DNA of 64,000 nucleotides from Tragulus kanchil (lineage: Eukaryota; Chordata; Mammalia; Artiodactyla; Tragulidae). This document shows positions 1,277 through 64,000 of the stretch, in pieces. The notes under the pieces were generated by a model. That model was not told where the DNA came from. It saw nothing but the letters and a program-made list of their open reading frames with translations, and ran no database searches. Every line of letters begins with the position of its first letter. Positions within the stretch are counted from its first letter, which is position 1. The position numbers were made by a program, and so were the translations under genes. The stretch lies in contig JAIOJX010000002.1 in NCBI GenBank assembly GCA_022376925.1, positions 41,377,501-41,441,500 of the forward strand. Reading direction: 5' to 3'.

Positions 1277-3470
1277 CTGAGCCCCTACCTGGGGGTTCTG
1301 CTCTCGCTCCAGGAGTCGAGGTCAGAACTGAATTGTTCACCCAGCCGGTGTTGGAGAATTGGAGAACTGACCACCACGAGGAAAAATCCTCTCCATTAGA
1401 AAAAGAAAATAATCTTCCATTTCTTCTCTGAATTGAGAGTTCTGGTCACCCAGTGCCTGTGAGGTGCTGCCCTTGGGGGCAAGGTGGGTCTCTGTGTGTG
1501 CACTGGCTGCAGGGAGCTTTGCTACCAGCTGCAAGGGAGGCTCTGTGCTCCTGCAGGGCCAGCGGCTGAAGGTGACCTTTCCTCCAGTCGTGTCCACCCT
1601 GATTAGCTGGGCTTAACTCAGTGGCTGGTGGACTGGGCAGACCAGCATGCTTTCACACAGAGGACTTGTGTTCTGACCTGAGAATTGTGAAAGCTATTTT
1701 CAGTTTGAGAGAGGAGGACATTTAAAATGCTTTTGCCAAAAACATGTAGGTTTATGCCCTCTTTTCTTTAAATACGGGTAGAATGAAATCCAGAAATAAA
1801 CATGGAAATAAAACTAAATGTTTTTCCAGAATCTTCCTTTCTGGATTTCCTCTCAAGGCTGAGCCTCCACTCAGATGAGCTGTGAACTGCTGCTTGAGAA
1901 AACTGGGGCTGCTGCCCACTCCACAGAGGGCCAGACCCACGCCATGGCTCAACCCGCCCGGACGTGCTCTCCTGAGACACACCAGGGTCAGCTCGCAGGA
2001 ATCCGCACCTGTCCCCGCCCCGGCTCATCCCCCCAAGAGAAGTGCCTGACCTTCCGTCCTGTGTCCACTCAGATGCCCGACGGGCTGGGCCTTGGGAGCA
2101 CAGGAGCACCGTCATGGAGGCCAGGGTGGGGGTGACGGTCAGCAGCCCAACCACGACCACCCAGAGATACAGGTCCAGCACCCCACCCTCCCCAAGTGTT
2201 GAGTGGAGGCTCCAGGTCCCTCCGTCCTGTTCCTCTCAGCAGGGCGGGCTGTCACCACGCCAGTGTACAAGCCCAAGTCAGTGAGCTCCAACAGGGTCTG
2301 GCTCCAGGCAAGAAAGAGGTGGGCCGCCTGCTGCCTACCAACCCTGGCATCAAGCGGGCACATCCTGAGGGCCCTACCTGGGGGTTCTGCTCTCGCTCCA
2401 GGAGTCGAGGTCAGAACTGAATTGTTCACCCAGCCGGTGTTGGAGAATTGGAGAACTGACCACCACGAGGAAAAATCCTCTCCATTAGAAAAAGAAAATA
2501 ATCTTCCATTTCTTCTCTGAATTGAGAGTTCTGGTCACCCAGTGCCTGTGAGGTGCTGCCCTTGGGGGCAAGGTGGGTCTCTGTGTGTGCACTGGCTGCA
2601 GGGAGCTTTGCTACCAGCTGCAAGGGAGGCTCTGTGCTCCTGCAGGGCCAGCGGCTGAAGGTGACCTTTCCTCCAGTCGTGTCCACCCTGATTAGCTGGG
2701 CTTAACTCAGTGGCTGGTGGACTGGGCAGACCAGCATGCTTTCACACAGAGGACTTGTGTTCTGACCTGAGAATTGTGAAAGCTATTTTCAGTTTGAGAG
2801 AGGAGGACATTTAAAATGCTTTTGCCAAAAACATGTAGGTTTATGCCCTCTTTTCTTTAAATACGGGTAGAATGAAATCCAGAAATAAACATGGAAATAA
2901 AACTAAATGTTTTTCCAGAATCTTCCTTTCTGGATTTCCTCTCAAGGCTGAGCCTCCACTCAGATGAGCTGTGAACTGCTGCTTGAGAAAACTGGGGCTG
3001 CTGCCCACTCCACAGAGGGCCAGACCCACGCCATGGCTCAACCCGCCCGGACGTGCTCTCCTGAGACACACCAGGGTCAGCTCGCAGGAATCCGCACCTG
3101 TCCCCGCCCCGGCTCATCCCCCCAAGAGAAGTGCCTGACCTTCCGTCCTGTGTCCACTCAGATGCCCGACGGGCTGGGCCTTGGGAGCACAGGAGCACCG
3201 TCATGGAGGCCAGGGTGGGGGTGACGGTCAGCAGCCCAACCACGACCACCCAGAGATACAGGTCCAGCACCCCACCCTCCCCAAGTGTTGAGTGGAGGCT
3301 CCAGGTCCCTCCGTCCTGTTCCTCTCAGCAGGGCGGGCTGTCACCACGCCAGTGTACAAGCCCAAGTCAGTGAGCTCCAACAGGGTCTGGCTCCCGCAGG
3401 GCAAGAAAGAGGTGGGCCGCCTGCTGCCCGAATTCCCACACCAGGTACCCTGGCATCAAGCGGGCACATC
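1277..3470. repeat. Tandem duplication 1, unit about 1.09 kb
   Basis: Copy 1 is about 1277-2364 and copy 2 about 2365-3470, in direct head-to-tail order with offset 1089. The copies look identical over most of their length. The right tail of copy 1 is compressed relative to copy 2: copy 2 has extra bases around 3394-3400 and about 3427-3450. The bases 'cctgag' occur before both copy starts, so the junction is ambiguous by a few bases. No gene is seen in the unit. It is probably an unmerged overlap of contig ends. Confidence 0.9.
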
Positions 3471-6400
3471 TCCCCGTCTCCCAGCCCACCCACCCTTTAA
3501 AGAAAGGAGCTCTTCCCCAGCGTCAAGAATATCGAGACCTTCCCAAAACGCTCCCCAAGGGGGACAAGCCCCAGCCCACAGTAGCCGATCCCCACAAAAT
3601 CCTCAGACGGCATTTCCTTCCAAGAGAGTGAGTCAAGACCAGACGGGTATGGCGCCTGGACTCCGGGCTCCTGGCCGGGCTGCCTCCCTGCAGATTTGCA
3701 CCTCTGCACTCCCGTGGGCTGGAACAGCGCCCCTCTTCTCCCCCGCTCCGGTGGCCAGGGCTGTCAGCGCCAGACTGCAGAGTAGGTGAAAGTCCTGGAC
3801 ACCTCACAAAAAATCAGTCCTTGTAAAACGTCCAAGGTGTTTTCGTTAGCCCCACAAGAGGGACCTCAGCTCTGCCCCTGCAAACAGGCAGCGGGACTTT
3901 CCTGATTCTAAAGCAAACTGCCCATGCAGCCTGAGGAGAGCTTAGCCTCAGGGTCCACAGAAACACAGACGGTGTGCTGACAAAACCAGATGCACCAGGA
4001 TCAAATCACAGACAGCGCGGAGTCGCCTCCACTGGGCTGCGTGGGGCCCTGGAGGGTGCTTTCCCAAACGCTGGGGAGCAGAGCAGTCCATCCGCTGGTG
4101 TCCTCAGCAGACGGAGTCGGATGGAGGGAGGGACAGGAGGCCACTAAGAATGTGCGGGGAGGTGCTGTCCGTGCAGGTGCCCTGTGGGACCACACCTGGC
4201 TCCACTGTAGGAAGAACTGTAGCCTGGCTCTCACGCCGGAAAGAGGGCACATGGGCCTGACCAGGGGTTGGATTTTATCCCGACATGAAAGGGATGAGAT
4301 CTCCCTGAATGGGAAGCGTGGTTATCCCATGAAGAATGACCTTCGTCAGCGAAGCCTCCCAACCTGCATGCTCCTCAGTCTCGCCCTGCCCGTGACTGCC
4401 GCTGTGCGGTCCTGGCTGGCCACCTTGCTTCACGCCTGGGCTGCTGCCACAGCCTCTCCGTCAGCCTCCACAGCTTCCTCATCAGCCTCCACCGTCTCGT
4501 CTCCTTGTCTGTTCTCGATTCGACTTTAACATTTTAAAGCCGGAGCAAGAGTCTCACGGCCTTTGGCTGAAGCCTGTCTCACCAGGGACGGTCACGGCCA
4601 GCGAGCCTGAGCCACAGGGAGCCCCTGGCCACGGAGGGAGCCTCCTCACCGCCTCCTGTGGTCTCCCAAGGACACCAGCATGCACCTGCCTCAGCGTCTG
4701 GCCACGTGGTCTCCATGACTGACTCCCTCGGGTCCGTGACCGCTGCGCCCGTGCTGCCCGCCTTCCCGCTTCATCGTCCCCGGCGATTCTCATCATCATC
4801 CCCCGCGCAGCCCCTGGGTCCCTTCCCACTGAAGCCACAGTCCACGGAGGCTCAGTGCTGGCTCTGCTTCAGGCACTGCAGTCTCAGGCACCATCCGGTA
4901 CGTGGACACCGCCCCACACCCACGGACCCTGAGCCCGCTCCCGCTGCTCCCCCGCATGGGGAGCTGCGCTGGCAGCCTTACCAGGGCCCTTTCCTCTGGG
5001 GCACCTTCTGCCCTGGCCGCTGAGACCATCGTAGCCACAGCCCAGACACCGACCGCCCTGTCATGGGACTGACTCCCTCAAGCAGGAAAGGAAAATAAGG
5101 CATCTACCCACATGTGCCCTTGGGAGAAAGAACCCTGGGGAGCCCAGGGGCCAGCTGCTCCCAGCTGGACAGGCAGGAGAAAAGGGTGACCTTCCTTCTA
5201 GCAAAGGCATAGTCACCAGGGAGAGAGTTACGCCCAGTCCCACCAGCCACATTGTGCTGACAGGCTTCTTGCCACCCTCGGGTCCTGAACACTCACCGTT
5301 GGTGGTGAGTGCGTGCAGAGGTGCTGGTTTAATGTCACCGTCCCCTCTGCCCTGCCCCTCGGATCTCCTGAGCCTTCCAACAGGGCTAGACAGAAGTGGA
5401 TGTCTTCTTTCCAACATCCTCCTGCTTCCAGTAGGAACTGCAGCTGTTTGTGTGGACCCAATAGGAACAAATATTCAAACTGCCCTCCTCTACACAGAAA
5501 CATGTAACACTTAGGAAATGCTTTTTAATTATCAGAAAAATTAACTACAGCCCTGGCCCATGCCACTGCCATTACCAGCCTGGGAAACCACAGTCTTTCC
5601 TGGAGGTGTCACCTCTGTCCCAAAGGAACGCATTTCCAAAAGACTGCTCCTTCCGCCTGGCGTCAGGCGTGTCCTGCAGATGCGACGTCGGCTGTGACTT
5701 CTCAGCCTCTCCCCTTCACTGCACCGACCCCCGGACATGCTCACGACCTAAGCGCAGCACCGAGCATGTGGTCCACTGGCTCCAGAGGAAGAACCAGCCC
5801 CATCCTTTCGCTGACTTTGTTCCTGCGTTTTTCCCCCATGTTTCCTTCCGGAAAAGTGGAAGCTGCCGATGGGACTCGAATGCGCAGGTGTGGCCTCTGG
5901 CAGATGTAAGGCGGGGCGCGGGGCAGGTGCGGGGAGATGCGCAGGCAGGGGTGTGGCGAGACGTAGGCAGGTGCATTGTGCAGGGCAGGTGCGCCCCTGA
6001 CGCTCAGTCCACGCGCATCCAGCCGCGAAGCCCGCATGGGAAGCGCTCCAGCCCCGCCCCGCTCGCTTCTCGCCAGCCCTCGGCCGCGCAGCCACTGGAG
6101 GCAGTGACATCTGGTGGCCCCGGGCGGTACCCACCCTGACAAACACGTTTTCTGTAGGAGGCAGCGCGGGGGGAAAAATGTCGGAAACGCTGGCATACAG
6201 GCTGGGCAACCCCCAGCACTTGAAAAGGGGCTGCTGGCGGGCGGTGCTTTGAGTCCCGAGCTGCTGGGCGGGTTTGGCTTTTCCTCCAGATCCTCTGCAG
6301 AAAACTTCACGGCAGGCAGTGAGCCCCAGCTGCAGGCAGGTAAGCAGGAGAGGCGGACCGGCTCCAGCAGAAAGGGTCTGCCCCACAGTCCCACAGCCCA

Positions 6401-10260: not shown

Positions 10261-12560
10261 CAGACTGATGCCGAGGCTGGTTCCTGGGAAACTGGCCTGG
10301 CCTCAGGTGGACGGTCAGCTCTGGACACTCTGGTCCCCTGAAGAGCCAACGAGTGATGGCACAGACATGGAGCCGTCAGAGCAACGGCACGGGCCCGCCT
10401 GGGCATCCCCTCTGAAGTGTGTTGGCACAGCACACGTCAGATGGTTCCCAGGTTAGGACCTCACTTCTTCACAGCATGCAGGGCGTCACAGGAGAGAAAG
10501 CTCCAGCCTTCCAAAGACAGACATGCTACTGCATTCAGGTCCTCTCCTTCCATGAATCGGGTGCTATCAACTTCAGAATAACCTTTCCTGGACACAACGC
10601 CGTTCTCAGTGGCTCCTGGTTTGTCATGCACACTCCCCGGCTCCCCCTTCCTGGGAGGTAGGTCCCCTTGGAAAATGCGATCTTCTTACCCTGATGCCTT
10701 GAAGCCCGTCCATGAGGCCAGTGTTCAGGCTCAGGCTCACTTAATGGATAACTACGTGAGGTGTGAGGTGCAGCAGGCCTCGCTTGGGAATGCTCGTCCA
10801 TCATGGGGCTCCCTCTGCTGGTGACCAAAACCAGGAGCCCACAGATGCCGACGTAGCTTCTCATGGAAATCAACCACACCACATCTCCGAGAAACTGTCA
10901 AGACTTGAGGAGTTGGGGACCTGCTCTCTCCTCTCTGGAGGTCCCCCTCACACAAATGCTGAGAAGACCTGCGTTCCAGAGCCAGAGATGCTGGCTCTAA
11001 CCCCCGGTGGAGAGCCAGCAGCCCAGCAGCGGCCTCAAGCCCACAGGGCCTCAGCGGGGAGTGGAATGAAGGATGCCCACACACCGCGGGCTGTGTGGTG
11101 GCTGAGAGCCCTGAGCGTGGGGCCCGCCTGCTGCAGCCCCTCTCTGTCCTGAGGAAGGCCCTGCCCCATCACTGGGGTTACTCTCACCGATCCCGCACAG
11201 AGAAGTGGTCCGACCAGAGCCTGGTCCCTGGTGTCCCAGCCAGACCTGCACAAGCATCAAACCCCCGGAGAGCTGTCTCCCCAGCACAGACGGGTCGTGA
11301 CCCTCACTGATAAAGTCCCAGTCTCACCAAAGTCACTGCAGAATTTCCTCTTGTGTTTTGCAGGTGCTTTCTTTTCCAAACACTCTACTCCACTCTTTGT
11401 TAAAACTTTTCAGACTGATGCCGAGGCTGGTTCCTGGGAAACTGGCCTGGCCTCAGGTGGACGGTCAGCTCTGGACACTCTGGTCCCCTGAAGAGCCAAC
11501 GAGTGATGGCACAGACATGGAGCCGTCAGAGCAACGGCACGGGCCCGCCTGGGCATCCCCTCTGAAGTGTGTTGGCACAGCACACGTCAGATGGTTCCCA
11601 GGTTAGGACCTCACTTCTTCACAGCATGCAGGGCGTCACAGGAGAGAAAGCTCCAGCCTTCCAAAGACAGACATGCTACTGCATTCAGGTCCTCTCCTTC
11701 CATGAATCGGGTGCTATCAACTTCAGAATAACCTTTCCTGGACACAACGCCGTTCTCAGTGGCTCCTGGTTTGTCATGCACACTCCCCGGCTCCCCCTTC
11801 CTGGGAGGTAGGTCCCCTTGGAAAATGCGATCTTCTTACCCTGATGCCTTGAAGCCCGTCCATGAGGCCAGTGTTCAGGCTCAGGCTCACTTAATGGATA
11901 ACTACGTGAGGTGTGAGGTGCAGCAGGCCTCGCTTGGGAATGCTCGTCCATCATGGGGCTCCCTCTGCTGGTGACCAAAACCAGGAGCCCACAGATGCCG
12001 ACGTAGCTTCTCATGGAAATCAACCACACCACATCTCCGAGAAACTGTCAAGACTTGAGGAGTTGGGGACCTGCTCTCTCCTCTCTGGAGGTCCCCCTCA
12101 CACAAATGCTGAGAAGACCTGCGTTCCAGAGCCAGAGATGCTGGCTCTAACCCCCGGTGGAGAGCCAGCAGCCCAGCAGCGGCCTCAAGCCCACAGGGCC
12201 TCAGCGGGGAGTGGAATGAAGGATGCCCACACACCGCGGGCTGTGTGGTGGCTGAGAGCCCTGAGCGTGGGGCCCGCCTGCTGCAGCCCCTCTCTGTCCT
12301 GAGGAAGGCCCTGCCCCATCACTGGGGTTACTCTCACCGATCCCGCACAGAGAAGTGGTCCGACCAGAGCCTGGTCCCTGGTGTCCCAGCCAGACCTGCA
12401 CAAGCATCAAACCCCCGGAGAGCTGTCTCCCCAGCACAGACGGGTCGTGACCCTCACTGATAAAGTCCCAGTCTCACCAAAGTCACTGCAGAATTTCCTC
12501 TTGTGTTTTGCAGGTGCTTTCTTTTCCAAACACTCTACTCCACTCTTTGTTAAAACTTTT
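10261..12560. repeat. Tandem duplication 2, unit 1150 bp
   Basis: Copy 1 is 10261-11410 and copy 2 is 11411-12560. The offset is exactly 1150 throughout and I found no difference between the copies. Both start 'cagactgatgccgaggctgg' and end 'cactctttgttaaaactttt'. The left flank ('gagattgtcg') and right flank ('tctttaaaac') share no obvious homology with the junction. No gene is seen within it. Identity over 1150 bp suggests either an artefact or a very recent event. Confidence 0.95.
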
Positions 12561-14563: not shown

Positions 14564-16784
14564 CAGGCTTTCTCATCACAGAGAAAGCTGGGATTGGATG
14601 GTACCCGCAGGCCTTGGTGATCTGGGACGGGGCACAGGACTCCTTCCTTATAGCTCGCTCCTTTGGGCTCAGACACTCACACACATGGTGTGCAGGAAAG
14701 TGGCAAAGAAGCTGCCGTAAGGAGGGGACGGGGTGAGAATATGGGAAGACAAGAAAACCTTATCGCAGAGACAGGAGCGCCCGACCTGAGTGTGCCTGGA
14801 GAGATCCTCCCCATCCGGGCCCCATGCCCCTGCCCACCCTGAGACAAAGTCATGTCTCTCCAGCTTGGAGTCAGAGGCCCTGAGTATATCAGGACATGTG
14901 TCCTCGCCCGGCTTCCTCCCTCTGCTCTGCAGCGTTGAGGGCAGTGGGTTCTGTTTCTCTCTCTCATACCCCTAGACCTCTTTTTCAACCTGATGTTGAC
15001 ATACAACTGTGCAAACCAGCTTGTGTTTCCAGCCTGGCTGATCAGAAGGGCAAATTCAGAGATGTCCCACCTGGGCCCCTACACAGAAGGACACTGAGAA
15101 GCTGCAAGAAAAATCCAGAACTGAGTGTAGATGGCAAAACAATGCACACCGTCCGCCTAAAGTCCTTCTCTTTGTTTTTTATCAACATAATCCCATTTCA
15201 CTGGGGACAGCAACATGCCCAGATGCAGACCCTCCCTGCCCCCAGCCGCTATGACAGCAGGTGCCGCTGTGAGATACAAACCCTCTGTGTGGTCCCCTCG
15301 TTCCCAGGGGAACCTACAATGAGGACTGCTCCCTTCACACACACCACCACCACGTAAACCAGAAGGCAGGTGATACAGGGAGATGCTTAACAGGACTTAA
15401 TACAGTCTCTCGCATGCCACGGCCAACAGTGACACACACATGGCCGAGAAGGAGCAGCCATTCTACAAACACTGGGGGTCTCACATTCCCCTAAGACCAA
15501 GCCATAACATCACCTAATGCAAGGTCATTTCCAAACTCAGATCTTATTTGCAAAGTAAACCTAGAATCTTGACCTGGAATAAATGGCTTTGCTCATCTGA
15601 AAGCCAACCCAAGTTCAAGAGCCAAAGAGAAACAGACTCCAACCTTCCTATTGATTCAGGATGGGGGTGCAAAGAGCTGGAGCCAGGCTTTCTCATCACA
15701 GAGAAAGCTGGGATTGGATGGTACCCGCAGGCCTTGGTGATCTGGGACAGGGCACAGGACTCCTTCCTTATAGCTCGCCCTTTGGGCTCAGACACTCACA
15801 CACATGGTGTGCAGGAAAGTGGCAAAGAAGCTGCCGTAAGGAGGGGACGGGGTGAGAATATGGGAAGACAAGAAAACCTTATCGCAGAGACAGGAGCGCC
15901 CGACCTGAGTGTGCCTGGAGAGATCCTCCCCATCCGGGCCCCATGCCCCTGCCCACCCTGAGACAAAGTCATGTCTCTCCAGCTTGGAGTCAGAGGCCCT
16001 GAGTATATCAGGACATGTGTCCTCGCCCGGCTTCCTCCCTCTGCTCTGCAGCGTTGAGGGCAGTGGGTTCTGTTTCTCTCTCTCATACCCCTAGACCTCT
16101 TTTTCAACCTGATGTTGACATACAACTGTGCAAACCAGCTTGTGTTTCCAGCCTGGCTGATCAGAAGGGCAAATTCAGAGATGTCCCACCTGGGCCCCTA
16201 CACAGAAGGACACTGAGAAGCTGCAAGAAAAATCCAGAACTGAGTGTAGATGGCAAAACAATGCACACCGTCCGCCTAAAGTCCTTCTCTTTGTTTTTTA
16301 TCAACATAATCCCATTTCACTGGGGACAGCAACATGCCCAGATGCAGACCCTCCCTGCCCCCAGCCGCTATGACAGCAGGTGCCGCTGTGAGATACAAAC
16401 CCTCTGTGTGGTCCCCTCGTTCCCAGGGGAACCTACAATGAGGACTGCTCCCTTCACACACACCACCACCACGTAAACCAGAAGGCAGGTGATACAGGGA
16501 GATGCTTAACAGGACTTAATACAGTCTCTCGCATGCCACGGCCAACAGTGACACACACATGGCCGCCGAGAAGGGAGCAGCCATTCTACAAACACTGGGG
16601 GTCTCACATTCCCCTAAGACCAAGCCATAACATCACCTAATGCAAGGTCATTTCCAAACTCAGATCTTATTTGCAAAGTAAACCTAGAATCTTGACCTGG
16701 AATAAATGGCTTTGCTCATCTGAAAGCCAACCCAAGTTCAAGAGCCAAAGAGAAACAGACTCCAACCTTCCTATTGATTCAGGA
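14564..16784. repeat. Tandem duplication 3, unit about 1.12 kb
   Basis: Copy 1 aligns from 14564 to 15661 and is followed by about 22 bases that do not align (15662-15683). Copy 2 is 15684-16784. Offset is 1119-1123. Copy 1 lacks bases present in copy 2 near its right end: copy 2 has 'ggccgccgagaagggag' where copy 1 has 'ggccgagaaggag'. The last 120 bases of copy 2 are also the start of duplication 4, so that segment occurs three times (about 15548, 16669 and 17754). Confidence 0.9.
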
Positions 16785-24894: not shown

Positions 24895-25162
24895 TTAATT
24901 TTTTGGCCACTTTTATTGGTCTTTCCTTTGTCTATTTTCATCCATCTTTGTTCTTTGGCCCGTGTGGGCCTCCCATTGCGGTGGCCTCTGTTGTCGCAGA
25001 GCACCGGCTCTGGGCTCATGTGCTCCAGAGCTCTGGCTCAGTAATTGGACACAGCGGTCCAGCCGCTCCGCGGCACGTGGGATCTTCCCAGGCCAGGGAT
25101 CGAACTTGCGCCCTTAGCACTGCAAGGCAGACTCTTTACCCACTGGACCACCAGGGAAGCCC
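24895..25162 (-). mobile_element. CHR-like SINE of the same family, antisense
   Basis: The reverse complement matches the 19608 element: 'gggcttccctggtggtccag' at the right end, and 'gatggatgaaaatagacaaa' plus 'gaccaataaaagtggcc' at the left end. Imperfect flanks ('accaaacccttttt' left, 'cccaaaacccttctttttg' right) may be a target-site duplication. Confidence 0.9.
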
Positions 25163-29480: not shown

Positions 29481-29584
29481 AGTCGCCCATTTCCCAAATT
29501 TCATCATAAGAAATTTTGGTCCCCTTTTTAAAAATTTTTTAAATAGGATTTTATTTGCAGCAGTGAAAACCAGGAGGCAGTTTA

Positions 29585-34987: not shown

Positions 34988-35094
34988 ATCTTTCTTGTCC
35001 TCTGCATATGACGCCTTCAAGAAGTAAACAGACTAGCCCAAAATAAAAGATGTATAATTACCAGAAATAAAAACACTACATAATCTACCATCAG

Positions 35095-47735: not shown

Positions 47736-49953
47736 ACAGCACCCTGACCCTGAGCCTCGTCCACAATTAAGTGGCCCTGTGATCACTCTGGGCTCACCTG
47801 GACAGCCTCTTCTCAAGACCATCTGACCTTGATACTGTCCACAGCCTGACTCCATTCTGCACTGTGACATAATGTTTGCACAAGTTTGTGGAATGAGGAC
47901 ACAGATGTCTCCAGGGGACCACAGTTACATGTGTGAGTTGCAAATATTTCCTTCCATTCATGCCTGGTCTTATTATCCTCTAACAGACTCTTATAAGGAG
48001 TAGAAATTACTCATTTCAGTAACGGTCAGTTTTTGAAATTTTGTTCTATGGATCCTGCTTTTGGTTTGTTATCTAAGAAAGCTTTCCCTAGTTGCCCCCA
48101 AAGTTAACATTTTCCTTTTTTTTTTTTCCTCTAAAAGTTGGATAAGTTTTACATTTCTATGATCCATTCTGAATTAATTTTTTTATATGGTATGAGGTAT
48201 GGGTTTGGTTTTGCATAGTGATCCCAACTGTTTCCCAATCATTTCTTAAAAAGATTATGGGAAGTGACAAAGGGTTCCACCAATCAGCACTGAGCCTGGC
48301 AGCAGCACAGCTGGGAGGTCACAGGCACGAGGGCTGGAGAGAGCAGCGTGTGGATGGACCGCTGGGGGCTGGCACCAAGTGCTCATGCCCAGCAGGAACA
48401 CCACACCAACATTCCAGCAGACAGAATGGTCGGCTGGCCTGCCATCCCCTTGGCGCAGTGGGTACGTAAGGAGAGCATCTGGGATGGGGGTGGGGGGTGC
48501 TGCAGATGTGCTTCTGCCCGGCAAGGCCAGCCTCCAGTTGCACCACCACCCGAGATGGTCAACCTGACACTTCGGGGCAAGGGGGGCCATGGGACTCAGT
48601 CCACCCTGGGGAAGGCTGGCTTCATCCTCCACGTGCCTACCGGCTTCCCCGCTGACACCACTTTGGACCTTCCACCAGCGAACTCAGAGGGGAGCCGGTT
48701 CCAGGTACCTGGGCTGGTACCGACGTGCCTTGAGACTCCAAAAGGAATGCATCTGAATGTTCTCAGGACATGAATCTGGCCTCCTACTGGCCTTTCAGTA
48801 GCAGCCACACGCTTTGGCCAGTCTGGACTCCCTCCACGCATAATGACAGCACCCTGACCTCCTCACAAGTAAGTGGCCCTGTGATCACTCTGGGCTCACC
48901 TGGACAGCCTCTTCTCAAGACCATCTGACCTTGATACTGTCCACAGCCTGACTCCATTCTGCACTGTGACATAATGTTTGCACAAGTTTGTGGAATGAGG
49001 ACACAGATGTCTCCAGGGGACCACAGTTACATGTGTGAGTTGCAAATATTTCCTTCCATTCATGCCTGGTCTTATTATCCTCTAACAGACTCTTATAAGG
49101 AGTAGAAATTACTCATTTCAGTAACGGTCAGTTTTTGAAATTTTGTTCTATGGATCCTGCTTTTGGTTTGTTATCTAAGAAAGCTTTCCCTAGTTGCCCC
49201 CAAAGTTAACATTTTCCTTTTTTTTTTTTCCTCTAAAAGTTGGATAAGTTTTACATTTCTATGATCCATTCTGAATTAATTTTTTTATATGGTATGAGGT
49301 ATGGGTTTGGTTTTGCATAGTGATCCCAACTGTTTCCCAATCATTTCTTAAAAGATTATGGGAAGTGACAAAGGGTTCCACCAATCAGCACTGAGCCTGG
49401 CAGCAGCACAGCTGGGAGGTCACAGGCACGAGGGCTGGAGAGAGCAGCGTGTGGATGGACCGCTGGGGGCTGGCACCAAGTGCTCATGCCCAGCAGGAAC
49501 ACCACACCAACATTCCAGCAGACAGAATGGTCGGCTGGCCTGCCATCCCCTTGGCGCAGTGGGTACGTAAGGAGAGCATCTGGGATGGGGGTGGGGGGTG
49601 CTGCAGATGTGCTTCTGCCCGGCAAGGCCAGCCTCCAGTTGCACCACCACCCGAGATGGTCAACCTGACACTTCGGGGCAAGGGGGGCCATGGGACTCAG
49701 TCCACCCTGGGGAAGGCTGGCTTCATCCTCCACGTGCCTACCGGCTTCCCCGCTGACACCACTTTGGACCTTCCACCAGCGAACTCAGAGGGGAGCCGGT
49801 TCCAGGTACCTGGGCTGGTACCGACGTGCCTTGAGACTCCAAAAGGAATGCATCTGAATGTTCTCAGGACATGAATCTGGCCTCCTACTGGCCTTTCAGT
49901 AGCAGCCACACGCTTTGGCCAGTCTGGACTCCCTCCACGCAGCATAATGACAG
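47736..49953. repeat. Tandem duplication 11, unit about 1.10 kb
   Basis: Copy 1 is 47736-48845 and copy 2 is 48846-49953. Copy 2's first bases ('accctgacctcctcacaagt') look like an error-rich, shortened version of the sequence in copy 1 ('accctgaccctgagcctcgt' and on). Copy 1's end lacks 'gc' relative to copy 2 ('cacgcataatgacag' versus 'cacgcagcataatgacag'). 'acag' is shared at the junction. An 8-A versus 7-A type difference also occurs near 48250/49351. Confidence 0.93.
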
Positions 49954-50328
49954 ACACCTGCAGTAAAACGCGTCTGCACACATCAAGTACCCGATACTGA
50001 ACAACTCTGCTGCCTGCACATGTTCAGTTTTTATTTAGCGAAACCCACAGTAAAACAAATGAACACATGATCTACTTCTCTTAGAAAACTGCCTACTAGC
50101 AAAATTCCTCTGGCCAAGTACAGGAATCTTTGCCCGCAGATGGCAGAGACGGCACATGTGCCTGTGAACAGCAGAGTGGCGTTCCTGGAAAGCAACGCAT
50201 GAAGACAGGCCGCTTCGTCTCTGGGGGCCTTGCGCCAGCCTGCTTCTTCTCCTCGTCGTGCGCTGAACTATCGTAATCTCCACCAGGACTGAGAACACAG
50301 GTCTCCTGCAGAGGTCCTTCATCCTGAG
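49954..50328. other. Intergenic sequence, no gene recognised
   Basis: Unique sequence. A minus-strand open frame (50035-50400) shows no recognised protein. Confidence 0.45.
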
Positions 50329-50639
50329 CGTGGCCAGTTTACACCACTCCCCACTCAGTCGAAGACTGTTGGAAACTGCCCAGGCTCTCACCCACGACAA
50401 AGGAATATAAACTGCTGTCTTATTAAGGCATTCTCACCATCTCTGCCACTTTCCGATGCCAGAACCCATCAGCTCTGATTTCAGCAACAACCCCATACCT
50501 CCCCTCTGACCCCAAGGGGCCAGTTCTTACTGAGGCTCTTGACTTGGGCACAAGGGACACAGATAAAAAGCCTAAATGTAACAGCTGCAAGTATGTGTTT
50601 ATCATAAGAAAACAGATGTAAATTTTCATTACTGTATCA

Positions 50640-50955
50640 GTCAGAGCCAATAGGATATTACAGATAAAGAAAAGAGAGACAGACAGGCATAGAGATAGAT
50701 TTATTTTAAGGAATTGTTCTAAGTGATTGTGGGGCAGGCTGGCAATTCAGGCAGGACTGGACACTCCAGTCTTGAAGCAGAACTTCTCCAGGAAACCTCG
50801 GTTTTCACTCGAGGCCTTCAGTAGACTGAGGGGGCCTCCATCACATTATCAAGGGCAACGCCCTCTACAAAACACCTCCAAAGGACTCAGCTCAGTGTCT
50901 GACTTAGTAACTAGCTACTACAGCCTAGCTGACACACAGAACTAACCATCATAAT
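50640..50955 (+). repeat. Interspersed-repeat-like sequence, family not assigned (repeated at 51733-52048)
   Basis: 'cagagccaataggatattac', 'agatttattttaaggaattg', then 'gcaggctggcaattcaggca' and 'acagaactaaccatcat' follow the order of a common mammalian repeat with 'accaatagg ... tttattataaggaattgg ... attaaccatca'. The name is not assigned. Confidence 0.5.
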
Positions 50956-50964
50956 GACCTTGAA

Positions 50965-51421
50965 CTCTAGGCAACGATTTCTTAAGACATAATATCAAAA
51001 TGACAATCAAAAAAAAGCAGAAAAATTACACTGCATGAAAATTTCGAAATCTGTACATCAAAGAAATAGTATCAAGAACAGTGAAAAAAAAAGAACAATG
51101 AAAAGACAGCTGAGAGGACAGGAGAAAATGTTTGCAAACCATGAATATACAGGTTTAGTAGGCAGAATATCTAAGATCTTTTACAACTCAACAACAAAAT
51201 GACAAACCAATTCTTCATATGGGCAAAGGACTTGAGTACACACTTCTCTAAAGAAAATACACAAATAGCCAGTAATCTTGTACAAAGATGTTCAGCCTCA
51301 TTAGTTACTTAGAAAAAATCGTGACAAAAACTACTTTACACCTACTAGGATGACAAGAATCAAAGACAACAGTAACACTATCACTGAGGCCGCAGAGAGG
51401 CAAGGCAGCCAAGAAGATCCT
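50965..51421 (+). mobile_element. L1 3' part of ORF2, sense (first copy)
   Basis: 'gggcaaaggacttgagtaca', 'atgttcagcctcattagtta', 'actactttacacctactagg' and 'atgacaagaatcaaagacaa' are diverged forms of well-known L1 ORF2 3' sequence. No open frame remains. It is interrupted at the junction of duplication 12. Confidence 0.8.
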
Positions 51422-52057
51422 CGTGGCCAGTTTACACCACTCCCCACTCAGTCGAAGACTGTTGGAAACTGCCCAGGCTCTCACCCACGACAAAGGAATA
51501 TAAACTGCTGTCTTATTAAGGCATTCTCACCATCTCTGCCACTTTCCGATGCCAGAACCCATCAGCTCTGATTTCAGCAACAACCCCATACCTCCCCTCT
51601 GACCCCAAGGGGCCAGTTCTTACTGAGGCTCTTGACTTGGGCACAAGGGACACAGATAAAAAGCCTAAATGTAACAGCTGCAAGTATGTGTTTATCATAA
51701 GAAAACAGATGTAAATTTTCATTACTGTATCAGTCAGAGCCAATAGGATATTACAGATAAAGAAAAGAGAGACAGACAGGCATAGAGATAGATTTATTTT
51801 AAGGAATTGTTCTAAGTGATTGTGGGGCAGGCTGGCAATTCAGGCAGGACTGGACACTCCAGTCTTGAAGCAGAACTTCTCCAGGAAACCTCGGTTTTCA
51901 CTCGAGGCCTTCAGTAGACTGAGGGGGCCTCCATCACATTATCAAGGGCAACGCCCTCTACAAAACACCTCCAAAGGACTCAGCTCAGTGTCTGACTTAG
52001 TAACTAGCTACTACAGCCTAGCTGACACACAGAACTAACCATCATAATGACCTTGAA

Positions 52058-52800
52058 CTCTAGGCAACGATTTCTTAAGACATAATATCAAAATGACAAT
52101 CAAAAAAAAGCAGAAAAATTACACTGCATGAAAATTTCGAAATCTGTACATCAAAGAAATAGTATCAAGAACAGTGAAAAAAAAAGAACAATGAAAAGAC
52201 AGCTGAGAGGACAGGAGAAAATGTTTGCAAACCATGAATATACAGGTTTAGTAGGCAGAATATCTAAGATCTTTTACAACTCAACAACAAAATGACAAAC
52301 CAATTCTTCATATGGGCAAAGGACTTGAGTACACACTTCTCTAAAGAAAATACACAAATAGCCAGTAATCTTGTACAAAGATGTTCAGCCTCATTAGTTA
52401 CTTAGAAAAAATCGTGACAAAAACTACTTTACACCTACTAGGATGACAAGAATCAAAGACAACAGTAACACTATCACTGAGGCCGCAGAGAGGCAAGGCA
52501 GCCAAGAAGATCCTCAAATGCTCAAACATGACTTACCTTATGACTCAAACAATTCCACTTCTAGGTATCCACCCAAGAGAAGTGAAAACGTATGTCCTCA
52601 CAAACACTTGTACACAAATGTAACAACATAACTTAGTACGGCCAAAATACAGCAACCGCCAAAACACCCATCACTCTGGAGTGTTCTGGAATTAGACAGT
52701 GATGTGTTGCACTCTTGTGATATGGTAAGTCACTGGACTCAACAGTTTAAAAGGTGAGTTTTATGGTATGTAATTTACATCTCAACCTAGCAAAAATGGG
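52058..52800 (+). mobile_element. L1 3' end, sense (second copy and continuation)
   Basis: Repeats the 50965 segment and continues without a break through 'ccttatgactcaaacaattc', 'acttctaggtatccacccaa' and 'atttacatctcaacctagc', the L1 3' end. The smooth continuation marks the right-hand copy as the one contiguous with the downstream sequence. Confidence 0.8.
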
Positions 52801-55677: not shown

Positions 55678-57874
55678 GACCAGAAAATGATGAGACTTTG
55701 GACCCAAAAACATGACAGTAAGTATCATATCCAACTTTACATTTTAATGCAGGTGTCTTGTCCAAACCTCACTTTTCATTACATGGTTCATTTTCCAGAT
55801 TACTTGGTAAAGCTATATACTGTTTAAAAAAAAAAAAAAAAAAAAGCTCTTGTATTAGAAAAAGGAAGACTATCCATTCCATAGTTAGCAGTGTTTCCGC
55901 GTAACCTCTGAACAATATCTAATCACTCGTCCACACTGAACAAACAAGGCTGAACAAACACTCTCAATGAATTCAATAGGCAGCTTCTTTACTGCCCACG
56001 GCTTTCTAACTTCTGCTGGGTAGTACTCAGTGTCAGTAATGAGTACTCCTTTGGAGGTGGAACTTCCCTTTTGTATAATCTTTTGGGTGCCAAAGCCTCA
56101 GACAGAAGCCGCTGCTCTTAGTGAACAAAGACAAGACGAATGAATTCACAGCAAATCTACATCTGGAGCCGAGGGGCCAGTGCCCAGCTCTTCACATGCT
56201 GCCTGGCCCATCATCACTAGAAAGAGAACAGTTCCTGCTCCTAGACTCTTTCTAAAAGCGTGAAATACATCTGGCCTTGATCACTGACTTTGTAAATTAA
56301 CTTCCAGATAAAATCTTGCACAGATCTTCAGACTGCATGTGAAAGTGCGACAGAGCAGACTTCCAGAGATTTCTTTAGGTGAGAAGGTCCCACTGAAGAT
56401 GTAAGCTCCATGGTAACTGCTTCAGACCCAGTGATAATTCTTTTTTTCTTTTTAAATCACATATTCATTCCATGAGTTTCTCAAACTCTATTTCACAGGA
56501 TGATGGTTTCAACCTGTCATTTATTTTGTCATCAAATACCTTCAATAATTTTCTCTTTAGAAACTACTTGTGGTGTACCTTTTATTTTCAATACTACACT
56601 GTGTTTTTAAAGTAACCAACATTTCCTATATGATCTATGATAAGATCTCCATCTTCAGTTCAGTAGCCTGAGAGGCATATTAATTTAGCATAACAGACAT
56701 CTTATTTCCATATACTTCTTGCTTTTGATAAAAACAGTACTGGATAGGAATTTACTGCTAATACTCCTATCAATCGGACTGAAAATGCTAGGTTTTCTTG
56801 TTTACCAAAAAACCATGACAGTAAGTATCATATCCAACTTTACATTTTAATGCAGGTGTCTTGTCCAAACCTCACTTTTCATTACATGGTTCATTTTCCA
56901 GATTACTTGGTAAAGCTATATACTGTTTAAAAAAAAAAAAAAAGCTCTTGTATTAGAAAAAGGAAGACTATCCATTCCATAGTTAGCAGTGTTTCCGCGT
57001 AACCTCTGAACAATATCTAATCACTCGTCCACACTGAACAAACAAGGCTGAACAAACACTCTCAATGAATTCAATAGGCAGCTTCTTTACTGCCCACGGC
57101 TTTCTAACTTCTGCTGGGTAGTACTCAGTGTCAGTAATGAGTACTCCTTTGGAGGTGGAACTTCCCTTTTGTATAATCTTTTGGGTGCCAAAGCCTCAGA
57201 CAGAAGCCGCTGCTCTTAGTGAACAAAGACAAGACGAATGAATTCACAGCAAATCTACATCTGGAGCCGAGGGGCCAGTGCCCAGCTCTTCACATGCTGC
57301 CTGGCCCATCATCACTAGAAAGAGAACAGTTCCTGCTCCTAGACTCTTTCTAAAAGCGTGAAATACATCTGGCCTTGATCACTGACTTTGTAAATTAACT
57401 TCCAGATAAAATCTTGCACAGATCTTCAGACTGCATGTGAAAGTGCGACAGAGCAGACTTCCAGAGATTTCTTTAGGTGAGAAGGTCCCACTGAAGATGT
57501 AAGCTCCATGGTAACTGCTTCAGACCCAGTGATAATTCTTTTTTTCTTTTTAAATCACATATTCATTCCATGAGTTTCTCAAACTCTATTTCACAGGATG
57601 ATGGTTTCAACCTGTCATTTATTTTGTCATCAAATACCTTCAATAATTTTCTCTTTAGAAACTACTTGTGGTGTACCTTTTATTTTCAATACTACACTGT
57701 GTTTTTAAAGTAACCAACATTTCCTATATGATCTATGATAAGATCTCCATCTTCAGTTCAGTAGCCTGAGAGGCATATTAATTTAGCATAACAGACATCT
57801 TATTTCCATATACTTCTTGCTTTTTGATAAAAACAGTACTGGATAGGAATTTACTGCTAATACTCCTATCAATC
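55678..57874. repeat. Tandem duplication 13, unit about 1.10 kb
   Basis: Copy 1 is 55678-56775 and copy 2 is 56776-57874. Copy 2's first about 38 bases ('ggactgaaaatgctagg' and on) look like an error-rich reading of the copy 1 start ('gaccagaaaatgatgag' and on). The poly(A) run is 20 A in copy 1 (55826-55845) and 15 A in copy 2 (56929-56943). A T run near 57822 is one longer in copy 2. Confidence 0.94.
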
Positions 57875-58123
57875 CTATAACACACTGCATCTGCTGCTTT
57901 TCATCATGTTTCTATTATACATAGAAAACAGATACACTTTCCAAAATCTTAGGAGTTGCAATCTTTTTGAGAGAATAACCAAAAGCCAATCAAGTTGTTA
58001 CTGAAAGACCACACTGAAACTTGATACTTTTCTTATAGAAAAATGAAGTCATTACCTTTAGATCCTTCCCAGCAATTAATTATACTATAACGATACACAA
58101 ACAAGTCTTAAAAATGTATCAAT

Positions 58124-58385
58124 GGGCTTCCCTGGTGGTCCAGTGGGTAAAGAGTCCGTCTTGCAGTGCAAGGGGCAACAGTTCAATCCCTGGCCCGGGA
58201 AGAATCCACGTGCCGCGGAGCGGCTGGACCGATGCGTCTAATTACAAGTCAGCGCTCTGGAGTGCATGCATCCAGAGCCGGTGCTCTGCAACCAGAGAGG
58301 CCACTGCAATGGGAGGCCCACACATACCAAAGAAAAAAGATAGATGAAAATAAATATAAAAAAAATGGAAGAGGCATGATGGGAA
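58124..58385 (+). mobile_element. CHR-like SINE (first copy)
   Basis: 'gggcttccctggtggtccag', 'ggttcaatcc'-type B box and 'agaatccacgtgccgcggag' give the same head and body as 19608. The tail is altered ('gatagatgaaaataaatata'). 'aaaaatgtat' at 58110-58119 and 58386-58395 is a possible 10-bp target-site duplication. Confidence 0.88.
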
Positions 58386-59215
58386 AAAAATGTATTTATA
58401 AAAGGAAATCTCGGGGCGGGGAGGAACCCCTTAAGTAACTCCCCCAACTCTGTAACTCATGACACAGGATGGGATCAATCAATCGTACTCATACTGTTAA
58501 TGTGTACATGAAAGCACGGCTGTGTGCCCATCACCGATGTGAAAACAGCTCTGAACAAAGCCAGCAATTCACGAGGCACCTTTCAAAGACGCCCGCACCG
58601 CCACACACATCTAGGATGTAAAAAAAAATGATACTTTCTGTGTCTTCCACATTTTCAAACAACTGAATTTCATGTGTTATTTATCAATAACAATATATAT
58701 ATAGTGCAAAGTATTTTGTCATCAAATACCTTCAATAATTTTCTCTTTAGAAACTACTTGTGGTGTACCTTTTATTTTCAATACTACACTGTGTTTTTAA
58801 AGTAACCAACATTTCCTATATGATCTATGATAAGATCTCCATCTTCAGTTCAGTAGCCTGAGAGGCATATTAATTTAGCATAACAGACATCTTATTTCCA
58901 TATACTTCTTGCTTTTTGATAAAAACAGTACTGGATAGGAATTTACTGCTAATACTCCTATCAATCCTATAACACACTGCATCTGCTGCTTTTCATCATG
59001 TTTCTATTATACATAGAAAACAGATACACTTTCCAAAATCTTAGGAGTTGCAATCTTTTTGAGAGAATAACCAAAAGCCAATCAAGTTGTTACTGAAAGA
59101 CCACACTGAAACTTGATACTTTTCTTATAGAAAAATGAAGTCATTACCTTTAGATCCTTCCCAGCAATTAATTATACTATAACGATACACAAACAAGTCT
59201 TAAAAATGTATCAAT

Positions 59216-59477
59216 GGGCTTCCCTGGTGGTCCAGTGGGTAAAGAGTCCGTCTTGCAGTGCAAGGGGCAACAGTTCAATCCCTGGCCCGGGAAGAATCCA
59301 CGTGCCGCGGAGCGGCTGGACCGATGCGTCTAATTACAAGTCAGCGCTCTGGAGTGCATGCATCCAGAGCCGGTGCTCTGCAACCAGAGAGGCCACTGCA
59401 ATGGGAGGCCCACACATACCAAAGAAAAAAGATAGATGAAAATAAATATAAAAAAAATGGAAGAGGCATGATGGGAA
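59216..59477 (+). mobile_element. CHR-like SINE (second copy, duplication 14)
   Basis: Identical by eye to 58124-58385 at offset 1092, flanks included. It is carried by the duplication and is not a second insertion. Confidence 0.88.
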
Positions 59478-59803
59478 AAAAATGTATTTATAAAAGGAAA
59501 TCTCGGGGCGGGGAGGAACCCCTTAAGTAACTCCCCCAACTCTGTAACTCATGACACAGGATGGGATCAATCAATCGTACTCATACTGTTAATGTGTACA
59601 TGAAAGCACGGCTGTGTGCCCATCACCGATGTGAAAACAGCTCTGAACAAAGCCAGCAATTCACGAGGCACCTTTCAAAGACGCCCGCACCGCCACACAC
59701 ATCTAGGATGTAAAAAAAAATGATACTTTCTGTGTCTTCCACATTTTCAAACAACTGAATTTCATGTGTTATTTATCAATAACAATATATATATAGTGCA
59801 AAG

Positions 59804-61278
59804 TATTTAAATCAATGAACTGGTACAAAGTAATCCAGACTATAAACCTTACATAAGTCAAACCAATTCTCTCTCCGAGCACTCAAATTTGAAGTGATAA
59901 AGCCCTTTAAAGAGATGCAAAATAATTTTTTTTTCTATTTTACATCCCAAAGACTCAATCACTACTTCTTACAAGTGTTTATGTTCCAAAATCCTGAAAA
60001 CCACTCATAAACCTGTAACAACTACTGGAAAAAAATTTTTTTATAAATAAGGGATTCTGAAAATTAGTAATTAAAACCATTAAAGAATAACACTCACCTA
60101 ACAGGACAAATATTTAACTTTTATGATTTATTAATATATGATCATCCCCTAGGGCCTCACTCACTAGCCTTTTGAAGGCAACACACGCCTGGGGGTGCGT
60201 TTCACAACCCTGCATGTGGGAAAGGAGAGTGGACAAGAGGTGAAGACGTCCAGATGCTCGGTCCACCCGTGTGGAAACAATGGACCACATTCAGGTGGCC
60301 AGGAGCTCCCATGTAGAACAGGACACACTCTCCCTAGGAACACAGTCACCAGACATTGATCCAGACTATCGGGAACCACTGCTCTCACACAGGCTGTCAG
60401 TGGAATTCCACTTAATCTCAATCACTTAAAACTTTTAAGAATGTATGCCGAGGTACAGTTAATTTCAAACCTATTTTAATAAATTACACATGCACTAATA
60501 TGTATGTATACATTCTCCATGTGTCACTTTAAACATCTCTGATATTTAAAGTCATATTGAAATGAATAAATTGAGATAAACTGCTGCTAACTTTAACGTA
60601 TTCTGGCCAAGAAAGGGTAGCTCAGAGCTTTACTTTTGAATGTACTTGATAAAAAATAAATCACGGGCTGTTTGAGAAATCTGTCCACGTTACCTTTCTA
60701 TTTTCTTTAGAAAACAAAACTCATTGAGAAAAAGAAAAAAAAAAAGAACTCGTAAGAATTTCAACAAAGTAGTATACCCAAATGCAACGAGATGAAAAAC
60801 AGCAACCCAAAGCCTTGAGGCTTGAGCCACTCTGGTCAAAGCAGAGCACAGGTGAACTCTAAATTTCGAATTACACAGCTGCCAAAGCGAAGGGTAGGTG
60901 GACAAAATTAATCCCGTCAGTAGTGAGAGCACTGGGGGCAGATATTATGAAGAAATACTGGAATGTATATTTGGATGATCTGTAATCTACGTTCTGTAAA
61001 AATTGCTAGAATTCAGACATATATTGCTTGTGAAATCAAACTGAAAACATAATATCTAGGATTCTTTCTCCTAACAAAAAATTAAACTTATGAGGAAATC
61101 TGTACTCTGAAATATGCTGCAAATTCCAATTTGCGAGAAGTATACAATGCAGGATAAATAACAAGAGGTATAGAGATGAACAGCTACAAGAATTCCAATT
61201 TCTACGGCCTCAGCAAGTTACCATATACACACATCAATGTAACAGAAATGGCACGCTTTCTGAAGACACATTCCACAT
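59804..61278. other. AT-rich sequence downstream of UBE2V2
   Basis: No transposon or exon recognised. It may include distal 3' UTR of UBE2V2 if a distal polyadenylation site is used. The sequence alone cannot decide this. Confidence 0.4.
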
Positions 61279-61998
61279 TTTATTTACAATTTTAAGACTA
61301 ACTTTAATCTCAAAATCACATATCCATACACCTATTTCCTTTTTGTTGATTTCACTTAAACGTAAATGCACGGTCTGTCCGACAAGACTGTAAACAAATA
61401 TTTACCACATCTGTTACACGGAACACACAGGAACAGCTTGTAACAGAAATTCATTCACATCCCCCACAGCATTTTTTTTTTATTATAAATACAGGTATCA
61501 AAACAATCCTGAACATATTTTTGATACTACTAATAGTCAGCACCCATACCGCCTCAAAAATTAACACAATTTGTGACAATATTCGCTGTACCTGCTACTT
61601 TAGACAATTTCAACTGAAGCTCTTTCACTAAGAAAGATGATGGAGCATGTCATTTGGGTCTTCTCCTCGGCTGTCCCGTCAGAAACACCCCTGCCTGCAC
61701 AGCCAGCGATGCTTCTCGCCGTGCTCCCACCTGCAAGCCTGAGTTCCAGTGAGGACTCCAGGTTCATGCTTAAATGGCGGTGCCTTAACAAAAAAAAACT
61801 GTGCTGAATTTTCCTCCTGTAACCTGAAAACATAATGGGTGTACATATATTAAATATATTCTTACAAATGTCCAGGTCATGTTTACCAGCTGGAATTATC
61901 TTACTTAATGTGTGGGTATTCTGCATTGTGATATTTTACCAAGACATTAACATGAGTAGAAGGTTGCTGATTTAAGACAAGTTTGAGATCCACTAAAA
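61279..61998 (-). other. UBE2V2: Probable UBE2V2 3' UTR (proximal part)
   Basis: Directly follows the UBE2V2 stop codon on the minus strand. The first AATAAA read on this strand is at 61484-61479, inside an A-rich run, and a second is at 61284-61279. Either could mark a polyadenylation site. The true 3' end is not determined, and longer isoforms are possible. Confidence 0.5.
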
Positions 61999-62145
61999 TT
62001 AATTGTTGTACGTTTGTCCTTCTGGTGGCTGTGGAAGCTTCATATTTTCTTTGGACATCATTAGACGCCTTAGCTCTTGAAGTACAACTTTAATGCTATA
62101 AGAATTTTGCCATTTTGCTAACACTGGTATGCTTCGTGCATCCAC
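61999..62145 (-). CDS. UBE2V2: UBE2V2 terminal coding exon, intact copy
   Basis: Minus-strand translation from 62145 gives 48 residues and a TAA stop at 62001-61999. It starts [12 protein letters not shown], continues [20 protein letters not shown] and ends PPEGQTYNN. This is the C-terminal third of UBE2V2 (MMS2, 145 residues in human). VDARSIP and the ending TYNN separate it from UBE2V1, which has VDPRAIS and CYSN. The protein is a ubiquitin-conjugating-enzyme variant without an active-site cysteine. It pairs with UBE2N (UBC13) to build K63-linked ubiquitin chains in DNA-damage tolerance. The exon starts in phase 0 directly after a splice acceptor, so this is the intron-containing gene and not a retrocopy. 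Upstream exons lie beyond 64000. The exon sits in the left copy of duplication 15 and reads without a frameshift. Confidence 0.97.
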
Positions 62146-62172
62146 CTGAAAGGAGGGGAAAAAGTAAAATTA
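62146..62172 (-). promoter_or_regulatory. UBE2V2: 3' splice acceptor of the last UBE2V2 intron
   Basis: Read on the minus strand, a pyrimidine tract 'actttttcccctcctttcag' ends in AG at 62147-62146, immediately before the first exon base (62145). An A/T-rich 'gttaatt' lies upstream and could hold the branch point. In the second copy (from 63309) the tract is two bases shorter. Confidence 0.9.
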
Positions 62173-62414
62173 ACTATCCAGTTGAAAGTACTTGGGCACC
62201 AATTTACTAGATGTACTTTAATAAGAAGGGCTTTAAAAATTCATAGTCTGGCACTATTTTCACAGGAGTGAACATTATGAAAGCACAAGTCCATGTAACA
62301 CTTAGGGGAAATACTCCTTATTTAATAGGGGTTTTCTAAAAATGTATGTCCTTTTTGTTTGGTGCCTTTCTATAAACACGGAGTGAACTATGATCATCAG
62401 AAATAAACATGTTA

Positions 62415-62502
62415 CTACGGCCATACCACCCTGAACGCACCCGATCTCGTCTGATCTCAGAAGTTAAGCAGGGTCGACCCTGGTTAGTACTTGGATGGGA
62501 GA
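62415..62502 (+). pseudogene. 5S rRNA pseudogene, 3'-truncated
   Basis: Reads 'ctacggccataccaccctga', then 'gatctcgtctgatctcagaa' and 'gttagtacttggatgggaga'. This matches about the first 90 of 120 bases of vertebrate 5S rRNA, with several substitutions ('cgcacccg' for cgcgcccg, 'aagttaag' for aagctaag, 'gtcgaccc' for gtcgggcc). The last quarter is missing. 'acatgttac' occurs just before (62407-62415) and after (62508-62516) and is a likely 9-bp target-site duplication. It lies in the last UBE2V2 intron on the opposite strand. The internal promoter region is mostly present but mutated, so I regard it as non-functional. Confidence 0.92.
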
Positions 62503-63164
62503 ACTACACATGTTACACATGGTAACTACTTTGCAAATGTATTTACCAACTCCCTTCTTGATGAGATGCGGTCAGAGGTTCTGCTCCATTTCCAAAGCCA
62601 TGACCCAAGGTTTGGGTAGTTACTTCAACCAGGGTTCAGGAGAGAGCGATGACCCTGACTTCTGCTTTCAGATCCCTCTCCAACACACTTTTCGACTGTG
62701 CTGACCTCGCCTTCCACTAGGGAAGACGGACAGGCTGGAGGTGGAGCACCTTCCAAGCCTCACCTGCAGATACCTGCTATTGCCTGGCCTCTTGACAGCT
62801 CCTGGAAACGGAGCATGTCATTTGGGTCTTCTCCTCGGCTGTCCCGTCAGAAACACCCCTGCCTGCACAGCCAGCGATGCTTCTCGCCGTGCTCCCACCT
62901 GCAAGCCTGAGTTCCAGTGAGGACTCCAGGTTCATGCTTAAATGGCGGTGGCTTAACAAGAAAACTGTGCTGAATTTTCCTCCTGTAACCTGAAAACATA
63001 ATGGGTGTACATATATTAAATATATTCTTACAAATGTCCAGGTCATGTTTACCAGCTGGAATTATCTTACTTAATGTGTGGGTATTCTGCATTGTGATAT
63101 TTTACCAAGACATTAACATGAGTAGAAGGTTGCTGATTTAAGACAAGTTTGAGATCCACTAAAA

Positions 63165-63308
63165 TTAATTGTTGACGTTTGTCCTTCTGGTGGCTGTGGA
63201 AGCTTCATATTTTCTTTGGACATCATTAGCGCCTTAGCTCTTGAAGTACAACTTTAATGCTATAAGAATTTTGCCATTTTGCTAACACTGGTATGCTTGT
63301 GCATCCAC
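63165..63308 (-). pseudogene. UBE2V2: Second copy of UBE2V2 terminal exon with three 1-base deletions
   Basis: Aligns to 61999-62145 but is 144 instead of 147 bases. One base is missing at each of three places: 'gttgacgtttg' for gttgtacgtttg, 'attagcgcc' for attagacgcc, and 'gcttgtgca' for gcttcgtgca. The reading frame is lost soon after the exon start and regained only near the stop. Because of the tandem-duplication context, this is more likely an erroneous second reading of the single real exon than a biological pseudogene. The splice acceptor is kept. Confidence 0.85.
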
Positions 63309-63575
63309 CTGAAAGGAGGGAAAAGTAAAATTAACTATCCAGTTGAAAGTACTTGGGCACCAATTTACTAGATGTACTTTAATAAGAAGGGCTTTAAAAA
63401 TTCATAGTCTGGCACTATTTTCACAGGAGTGAACATTATGAAAGCACAAGTCCATGTAACACTTAGGGGAAATACTCCTTATTTAATAGGGGTTTTCTAA
63501 AAATGTATGTCCTTTTTGTTTGGTGCCTTTCTATAAACACGGAGTGAACTATGATCATCAGAAATAAACATGTTA

Positions 63576-63663
63576 CTACGGCCATACCACCCTGAACGCA
63601 CCCGATCTCGTCTGATCTCAGAAGTTAAGCAGGGTCGACCCTGGTTAGTACTTGGATGGGAGA
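63576..63663 (+). pseudogene. Second copy of the truncated 5S pseudogene
   Basis: Same 88 bases as 62415-62502 at offset 1161, with the same 'acatgttac' flanks. It is carried by duplication 15 and is not an independent insertion. Confidence 0.9.
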
Positions 63664-64000
63664 ACTACACATGTTACACATGGTAACTACTTTGCAAATG
63701 TATTTACCAACTCCCTTCTTGATGAGATGCGGTCAGAGGTTCTGCTCCATTTCCAAAGCCATGACCCAAGGTTTGGGTAGTTACTTCAACCAGGGTTCAG
63801 GAGAGAGCGATGACCCTGACTTCTGCTTTCAGATCCCTCTCCAACACACTTTTCGCACTGTGCTGACCTCGCCTTCCACTAGGGAAGACGGACAGGCTGG
63901 AGGTGGAGCACCTTCCAAGCCTCACCTGCAGATACCTGCTATTGCCTGGCCTCTTCGACAGCTCCCTGGAAACCCACCCACTGAGGACCACCTATGCCCC

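Follow-up and report, generated by a model that had tools for sequence, protein, structure and literature searches.

Tandem duplications of about 1.1 kb in a chromosome-scale assembly point to overlapping ends joined without merging

Tandem Pairs in the Window

The window analysed here is a stretch of 64,000 bases, which lies at bases 41,377,501-41,441,500 of C31, a contig of 160.0 Mb and one of the 32 that make up a 3.167-Gb assembly, and contains fifteen head-to-tail direct repeats with a unit of about 1.1 kb. The sequence is free of N, and its CpG dinucleotides are depleted (observed/expected ratio of 0.39) in a vertebrate-like manner. All fifteen direct repeats claimed by an earlier, sequence-only reading were recovered by self-comparison of the window, using runs of at least 60 bp and chains of at least 100 bp, together with local alignment. 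The single length class that it described (about 1085-1168 bp) was reproduced, the offsets between copies ranging from 1085 to 1168 bp with a mean of 1111.4 bp and a standard deviation (sd) of 26.6 bp, and its estimate that about 26% of the window would be false agrees with the 16,671 bases of second copies, or 26.0%, counted here. As far as the assembled sequence alone can indicate, the tandem duplications are almost certainly an artefact of assembly and not biology.

Most junctions were found at the positions reported earlier, namely 11411, 15684, 17754, 36077, 38220, 40086, 42739, 44618, 51422, 58712, and 62810, and the others were refined: 2365 became 2372, 29790 became 29796, 48846 became 48838-48846, and 56776 became 56776-56814, the last being ambiguous. 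The identity between copies is 96.96-100% per pair in local alignments, and the pairs at 11411, 44618, and 58712 are identical over the aligned length.

From left to right, the first pair (1283-2371 and 2372-3470, offset 1089) shows five deletions in the terminal ~70 bp of copy 1, and the second (10261-11410 and 11411-12560, offset 1150) consists of identical copies. The tail of the third pair (14564-15683 and 15684-16797, offset 1120) is present a third time at 17754, where the fourth pair (16669-17753 and 17754-18807, offset 1085) has its junction; the latter is seen in self-comparison, alignment, and a triple, and the fifth (28649-29795 and 29796-30935, offset 1147) in self-comparison and alignment. 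Nine deletions lie in copy 1 of the sixth pair (34988-36076 and 36077-37193, offset 1089), 45-121 bp before the junction, and copy 1 of the seventh (37086-38219 and 38220-39378, offset 1134) lacks 16 bp at a point 62 bp short of its end. In the eighth pair (38971-40085 and 40086-41140, offset 1115), a 4-bp deletion is located ~70 bp into copy 2, and in the ninth (41643-42738 and 42739-43847, offset 1096), copy 1 has eight deletions within its final 118 bp. The tenth pair (43530-44617 and 44618-45686, offset 1088) is identical over 1069 bp. In the eleventh pair (47736-48845 and 48846-49958, offset 1102-1110), copy 2 begins with ~25 bp that contain three deletions, the twelfth (50329-51421 and 51422-52515, offset 1093) is supported by self-comparison and alignment, and copy 1 of the thirteenth (55711-56813 and 56814-57874, offset 1103) ends in ~38 bp of garbled sequence. 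The fourteenth pair (57620-58711 and 58712-59808, offset 1092) again has identical copies, and both copies of the fifteenth (61642-62809 and 62810-63973, offset 1168) contain a 5S rRNA-like sequence.

The units had been said to share no sequence with one another, which stands except for 4 of the 14 neighbouring pairs, those at 15684/17754, 38220/40086, 42739/44618, and 56814/58712, which interlock by having 116-373 bp in common, so that this stretch is present three times. A further exception may be 36077/38220, where the neighbours probably overlap too, by ~100 bp of degraded end.

Distribution Through the Assembly

The sequence-only reading had called for a survey of the assembly at an offset of about 1.1 kb, and this was carried out as a sample rather than as a complete scan. 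Twenty stretches of 10 kb were taken from C31, four of them flanking the window, and eleven stretches of 4 kb from elsewhere, one on each of 11 other chromosome-scale contigs. The 27 stretches beyond the 104-kb window neighbourhood (16 on C31 and 11 on other contigs) are referred to as the outside set, and the window and all sampled stretches, 308 kb in total, as the pooled data. Pairs of 1.06-1.19 kb were found in 24 of the 27 outside stretches, comprising 15 of the 16 on C31 and 9 of the 11 on other chromosome-scale contigs, so that 10 of the 12 chromosome-scale sequences sampled, including C31, show the pattern. The four stretches adjoining the window were all positive as well.

Complete pairs were defined by excluding those cut by the end of a stretch, those with fewer than 700 shared seeds, and those with less than 85% of the offset covered. 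The pooled data contain 65 such pairs, 44 of which lie outside the window neighbourhood, with a unit of 1057-1184 bp (mean 1113.9, sd 30.6). A repeat spectrum was also built from 24-mers occurring exactly twice per stretch in the 308 kb and binned by offset; bins with counts of at least 100 are confined to offsets of 1050-1199 and 5050-5099, the latter representing a single repeat in stretch L018. A chance origin of the repeats is excluded. The proportion of testable positions that are repeated at the ~1.1-kb offset is about 31% across the outside set (29.7% for its stretches on C31 and 35.0% for those on the remaining contigs); inside the neighbourhood it is 21.8%.

The repeats are present in the assembled sequence in units of one length class, as would be the case if they were real, recent tandem duplications generated throughout the genome by a process favouring units of about 1.1 kb. 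Such a process, however, would need fresh duplication of ~31% of the testable positions across the 27 outside stretches.

Differences Between the Copies

In the 65 complete pairs, 580 differences were counted, four pairs having none, and for 501 of them the distance to the junction side of the copy is no more than 150 bp. Counted back from the end of copy 1, bases 31-150 show 23.1 differences per kb; the rate is 4.6 per kb at positions 30-150 of copy 2 and 1.5 per kb in the unit middles, giving an asymmetric error load in which the end of the left piece is far above the start of the right piece. For the final 30 bases of copy 1, where the boundary cannot be placed unambiguously, the rate was tabulated separately and is 144 differences per kb; the first 30 bases of copy 2 show 2.1 per kb. 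A similar distribution is seen for the 122 events of the window alone, with 88 in the last 150 bp, 14 in the first 150 bp, and 20 in the middle. Deletions in copy 1 mark the limit sharply: 165 of 185 are at most 150 bp from its end, with eight at 125-149 bp and one at 150-174 bp. The differences between copies are not distributed like mutations. If the duplications were real, even and equally shared differences would be expected, in contrast to the mostly junction-side differences found.

Adjacent false copies can also be yielded by heterotype duplication, in which both alleles of a heterozygous segment are retained. Allelic differences, however, would scatter over the unit, whereas the unit middles are identical in 32 of the 65 pairs, and the length of the duplicated segment would not be fixed. 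Moreover, the middles here average 99.85% identity, compared to a median of 98.1%, with few cases above 99.5%, in the accessible part of Kelley and Salzberg 2010 (PMC2864568). On the basis of where the differences lie, mostly at the junction sides, we reject both haplotypic and real duplication, of which the former is very improbable and the latter extremely so.

Three Copies of the Same Segment

Where consecutive units interlock, the shared segment offers an internal referee. A triple was accepted only if its first pair was complete, its second pair was supported by 700 or more seeds, and the predicted overlap exceeded 60 bp; the three copies were termed a for the end of the left piece, b for the inside of the middle piece, and c for the start of the right piece. 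Among 440 deviant columns in 17 triples, the deviation is in a in 424, in c in 15, and in b in one, meaning that the interior copy b matches another copy in 439 columns. Poorly aligned ends in two triples, L027 (93) and 36077/38220 of the window (71), supply 164 of the 424 a-deviations, and without them the counts are 260 for a, nine for c, and zero for b. In the window, the corresponding counts for the four clear triples are 87, five, and zero. The distance of a-deviations from the piece end has a median of 39 bp, a 95th percentile of 246 bp, and a maximum of 383 bp.

The interior copy is essentially always correct. Real copies would each carry a share of the differences, in contrast to the near absence of differences from the interior copy, which deviates in 1 of 440 columns. 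The triples provide direct evidence that a and c are the frayed ends of separately built pieces.

Possible Origin of the Duplications

The survey of outside stretches, the junction-side differences, and the correctness of the interior copy in triples support the proposal of the sequence-only reading that overlapping ends were left unmerged. In the mechanism that best accounts for the repeats, the assembler produced consensus sequences for successive pieces, each having a ~1.1-kb segment in common with its neighbour; where this common segment went unrecognised, both pieces were written whole, and the segment appears twice, head to tail. Concatenation of separately built consensus pieces over a ~1.1-kb overlap would leave the observed error pattern. 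Short polishing reads of ~150 bp, derived from a real A-X-B sequence, would presumably be unable to cross the false X-X join, and this may be the reason why the surviving errors lie at most 150 bp from the junctions.

The source of the segment is somewhat more probably than otherwise a shared graph node of an assembler of the wtdbg2/Redbean type, with failure of the consensus step that joins overlaps. As described in PMC7730629, wtdbg2 divides reads into segments of 1024 bp, which serve as the vertices of its fuzzy Bruijn graph. A fixed segment of ~1 kb shared by neighbouring edges would give both the ~1.1-kb overlap and a minimum node spacing. With 1024-bp segments as vertices, neighbouring edges have about one segment in common. 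The consensus stage of wtdbg2 joins edges through alignment of this shared segment, and failure of the join would yield the observed anatomy, including the minimum spacing of units. In collapsed coordinates, unit starts are spaced by 591-10,895 bp, with 21 of 51 gaps at 716-1072 bp. A minimum spacing would be expected of graph nodes, which should be packed no closer than about three quarters of a 1024-bp node. The bin size of wtdbg2 is 256 bp. A periodicity of this length was nominally significant in the window for the seven shortest spacings, a post hoc subset (p 0.014), and not for all 14 (p 0.41); as it does not hold in the 51 pooled spacings, it is not relied on for the attribution to wtdbg2.

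Several results weigh against unmerged overlaps as the explanation. No pair was found in 3 of the 27 outside stretches (L018, L023, and L031), and one of the 17 triples lacks any deviation. The account based on 150-bp reads does not reach the 79 of 580 differences that lie in unit middles, nor the 5% of a-deviations in the pooled triples whose distance from the piece end exceeds ~246 bp. For a wtdbg2 source in particular, the 256-bp spacing periodicity gives pooled p values of 0.09 (n = 31), 0.06 (n = 43), and 0.24 (n = 51), so that none is demonstrated in the pooled data, which is a difference from the wtdbg2 graph, and the unit is ~9% longer than 1024 bp. In addition, such an error is not mentioned in the accessible parts of two papers that used wtdbg2 (PMC8228171 and PMC9902641).

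The lack of a significant 256-bp periodicity and the unit length in excess of 1024 bp would also suit overlaps from another step or program, such as gap filling, another overlap-layout assembler, or chunk-wise polishing with the chunks rejoined end to end, by which the duplications would still be an artefact. Fixed-size chunks, however, should give regular piece lengths, whereas the collapsed spacings vary as described above, and gap filling would presumably not recur at intervals of a few kb along a chromosome-scale contig. A source of this kind is a serious possibility, falling only a little short of an even chance.

Relationship to Known False Duplications

Duplicated overlapping contigs (DOCs), which were attributed to haplotype divergence by Kelley and Salzberg 2010, resemble the present case in that the overlapping ends of neighbours are placed side by side unmerged, resulting in a false tandem duplication. 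As far as the accessible part of that paper (PMC2864568) shows, DOCs lie between contigs, whereas the duplications here are inside sequence that is N-free in the window, and they differ further in their narrow overlap length, near-identical middles, and recurrence every few kb. Ko et al. 2022, from the Vertebrate Genomes Project (VGP), separate heterotype from homotype false duplications (PMC9516828), the latter being same-haplotype sequence that is under-collapsed through read or consensus errors, to which the present duplications are alike. They belong to the homotype class, with overlapping ends. Within the accessible portion of the table in that paper, homotype false duplication reaches at most 2.7% of an assembly and total false duplication at most 15.9%, in contrast to the far higher load here, about 31% of the testable sampled positions outside the window, and to the narrow unit length.

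Among the top literature matches listed, none describes a tandem artefact with a fixed unit of ~1.1 kb, whether from wtdbg2 or from overlaps left unmerged, and none appears in the accessible part of PMC11259980. It is an evenly balanced proposition that a consensus-join failure of a segment-graph assembler, for which no description was found, falsely duplicates about one third of an apparently mammalian chromosome-scale assembly, and that assemblies made in a like manner share the signature, which could be detected without recourse to anything beyond the sequence.

Implications

Taken literally, the ~31% of repeated positions would reduce the 3.17-Gb assembly to ~2.2 Gb, which is a rough figure obtained from a small sample of 27 stretches, 16 of them from one contig. 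The practical consequences would be considerable. Exon duplications, gene-family counts, surveys of segmental duplication, calls of copy number variation (CNV), and genome size, if derived from the assembly, would be wrong. The biological significance of the duplications is nil, and their value lies in a warning on the assembly and in a read-free diagnostic, which combines a fixed self-offset, mainly junction-side differences, and the interior copy as the referee of triples and could be used to screen other assemblies.

Other Observations

The 5S rRNA-like sequence is located at 62413-62534 and 63574-63695 of the window (51.5 bits), being present twice because it lies inside a doubled unit that is taken to be false, and it is possibly a 5S pseudogene. 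Other repeats listed for the window are only SINE-like (short interspersed nuclear element) matches, one direct (19612-19866 and 31015-31269) and one inverted (25041-25162 and 31011-31132). SINEs of the Cetartiodactyl type may be present in the window. A Pfam scan of 10 of the 102 open reading frames (ORFs) in the window revealed no family at an E value of 0.01, and this part therefore provides no gene anchor for the region.

Stretch L018 (C31:10000001-10010000) contains a 5.05-kb tandem repeat that is 99.3% identical over 4948 aligned columns and has no Rfam match; it falls in a different length class, was left out of the pair counts, and may be either a genuine repeat or a further assembly error. 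A diverged direct repeat of ~330 bp with an offset of 1478, outside the 1.1-kb class, is found at 2477-2811 of stretch L006 (C31:41451501-41461500). Finally, 16 of the 32 contigs are longer than 70 Mb (73-297 Mb), the next being 10.7 Mb, and a chromosome number of about 2n = 32 would fit if these were whole chromosomes.

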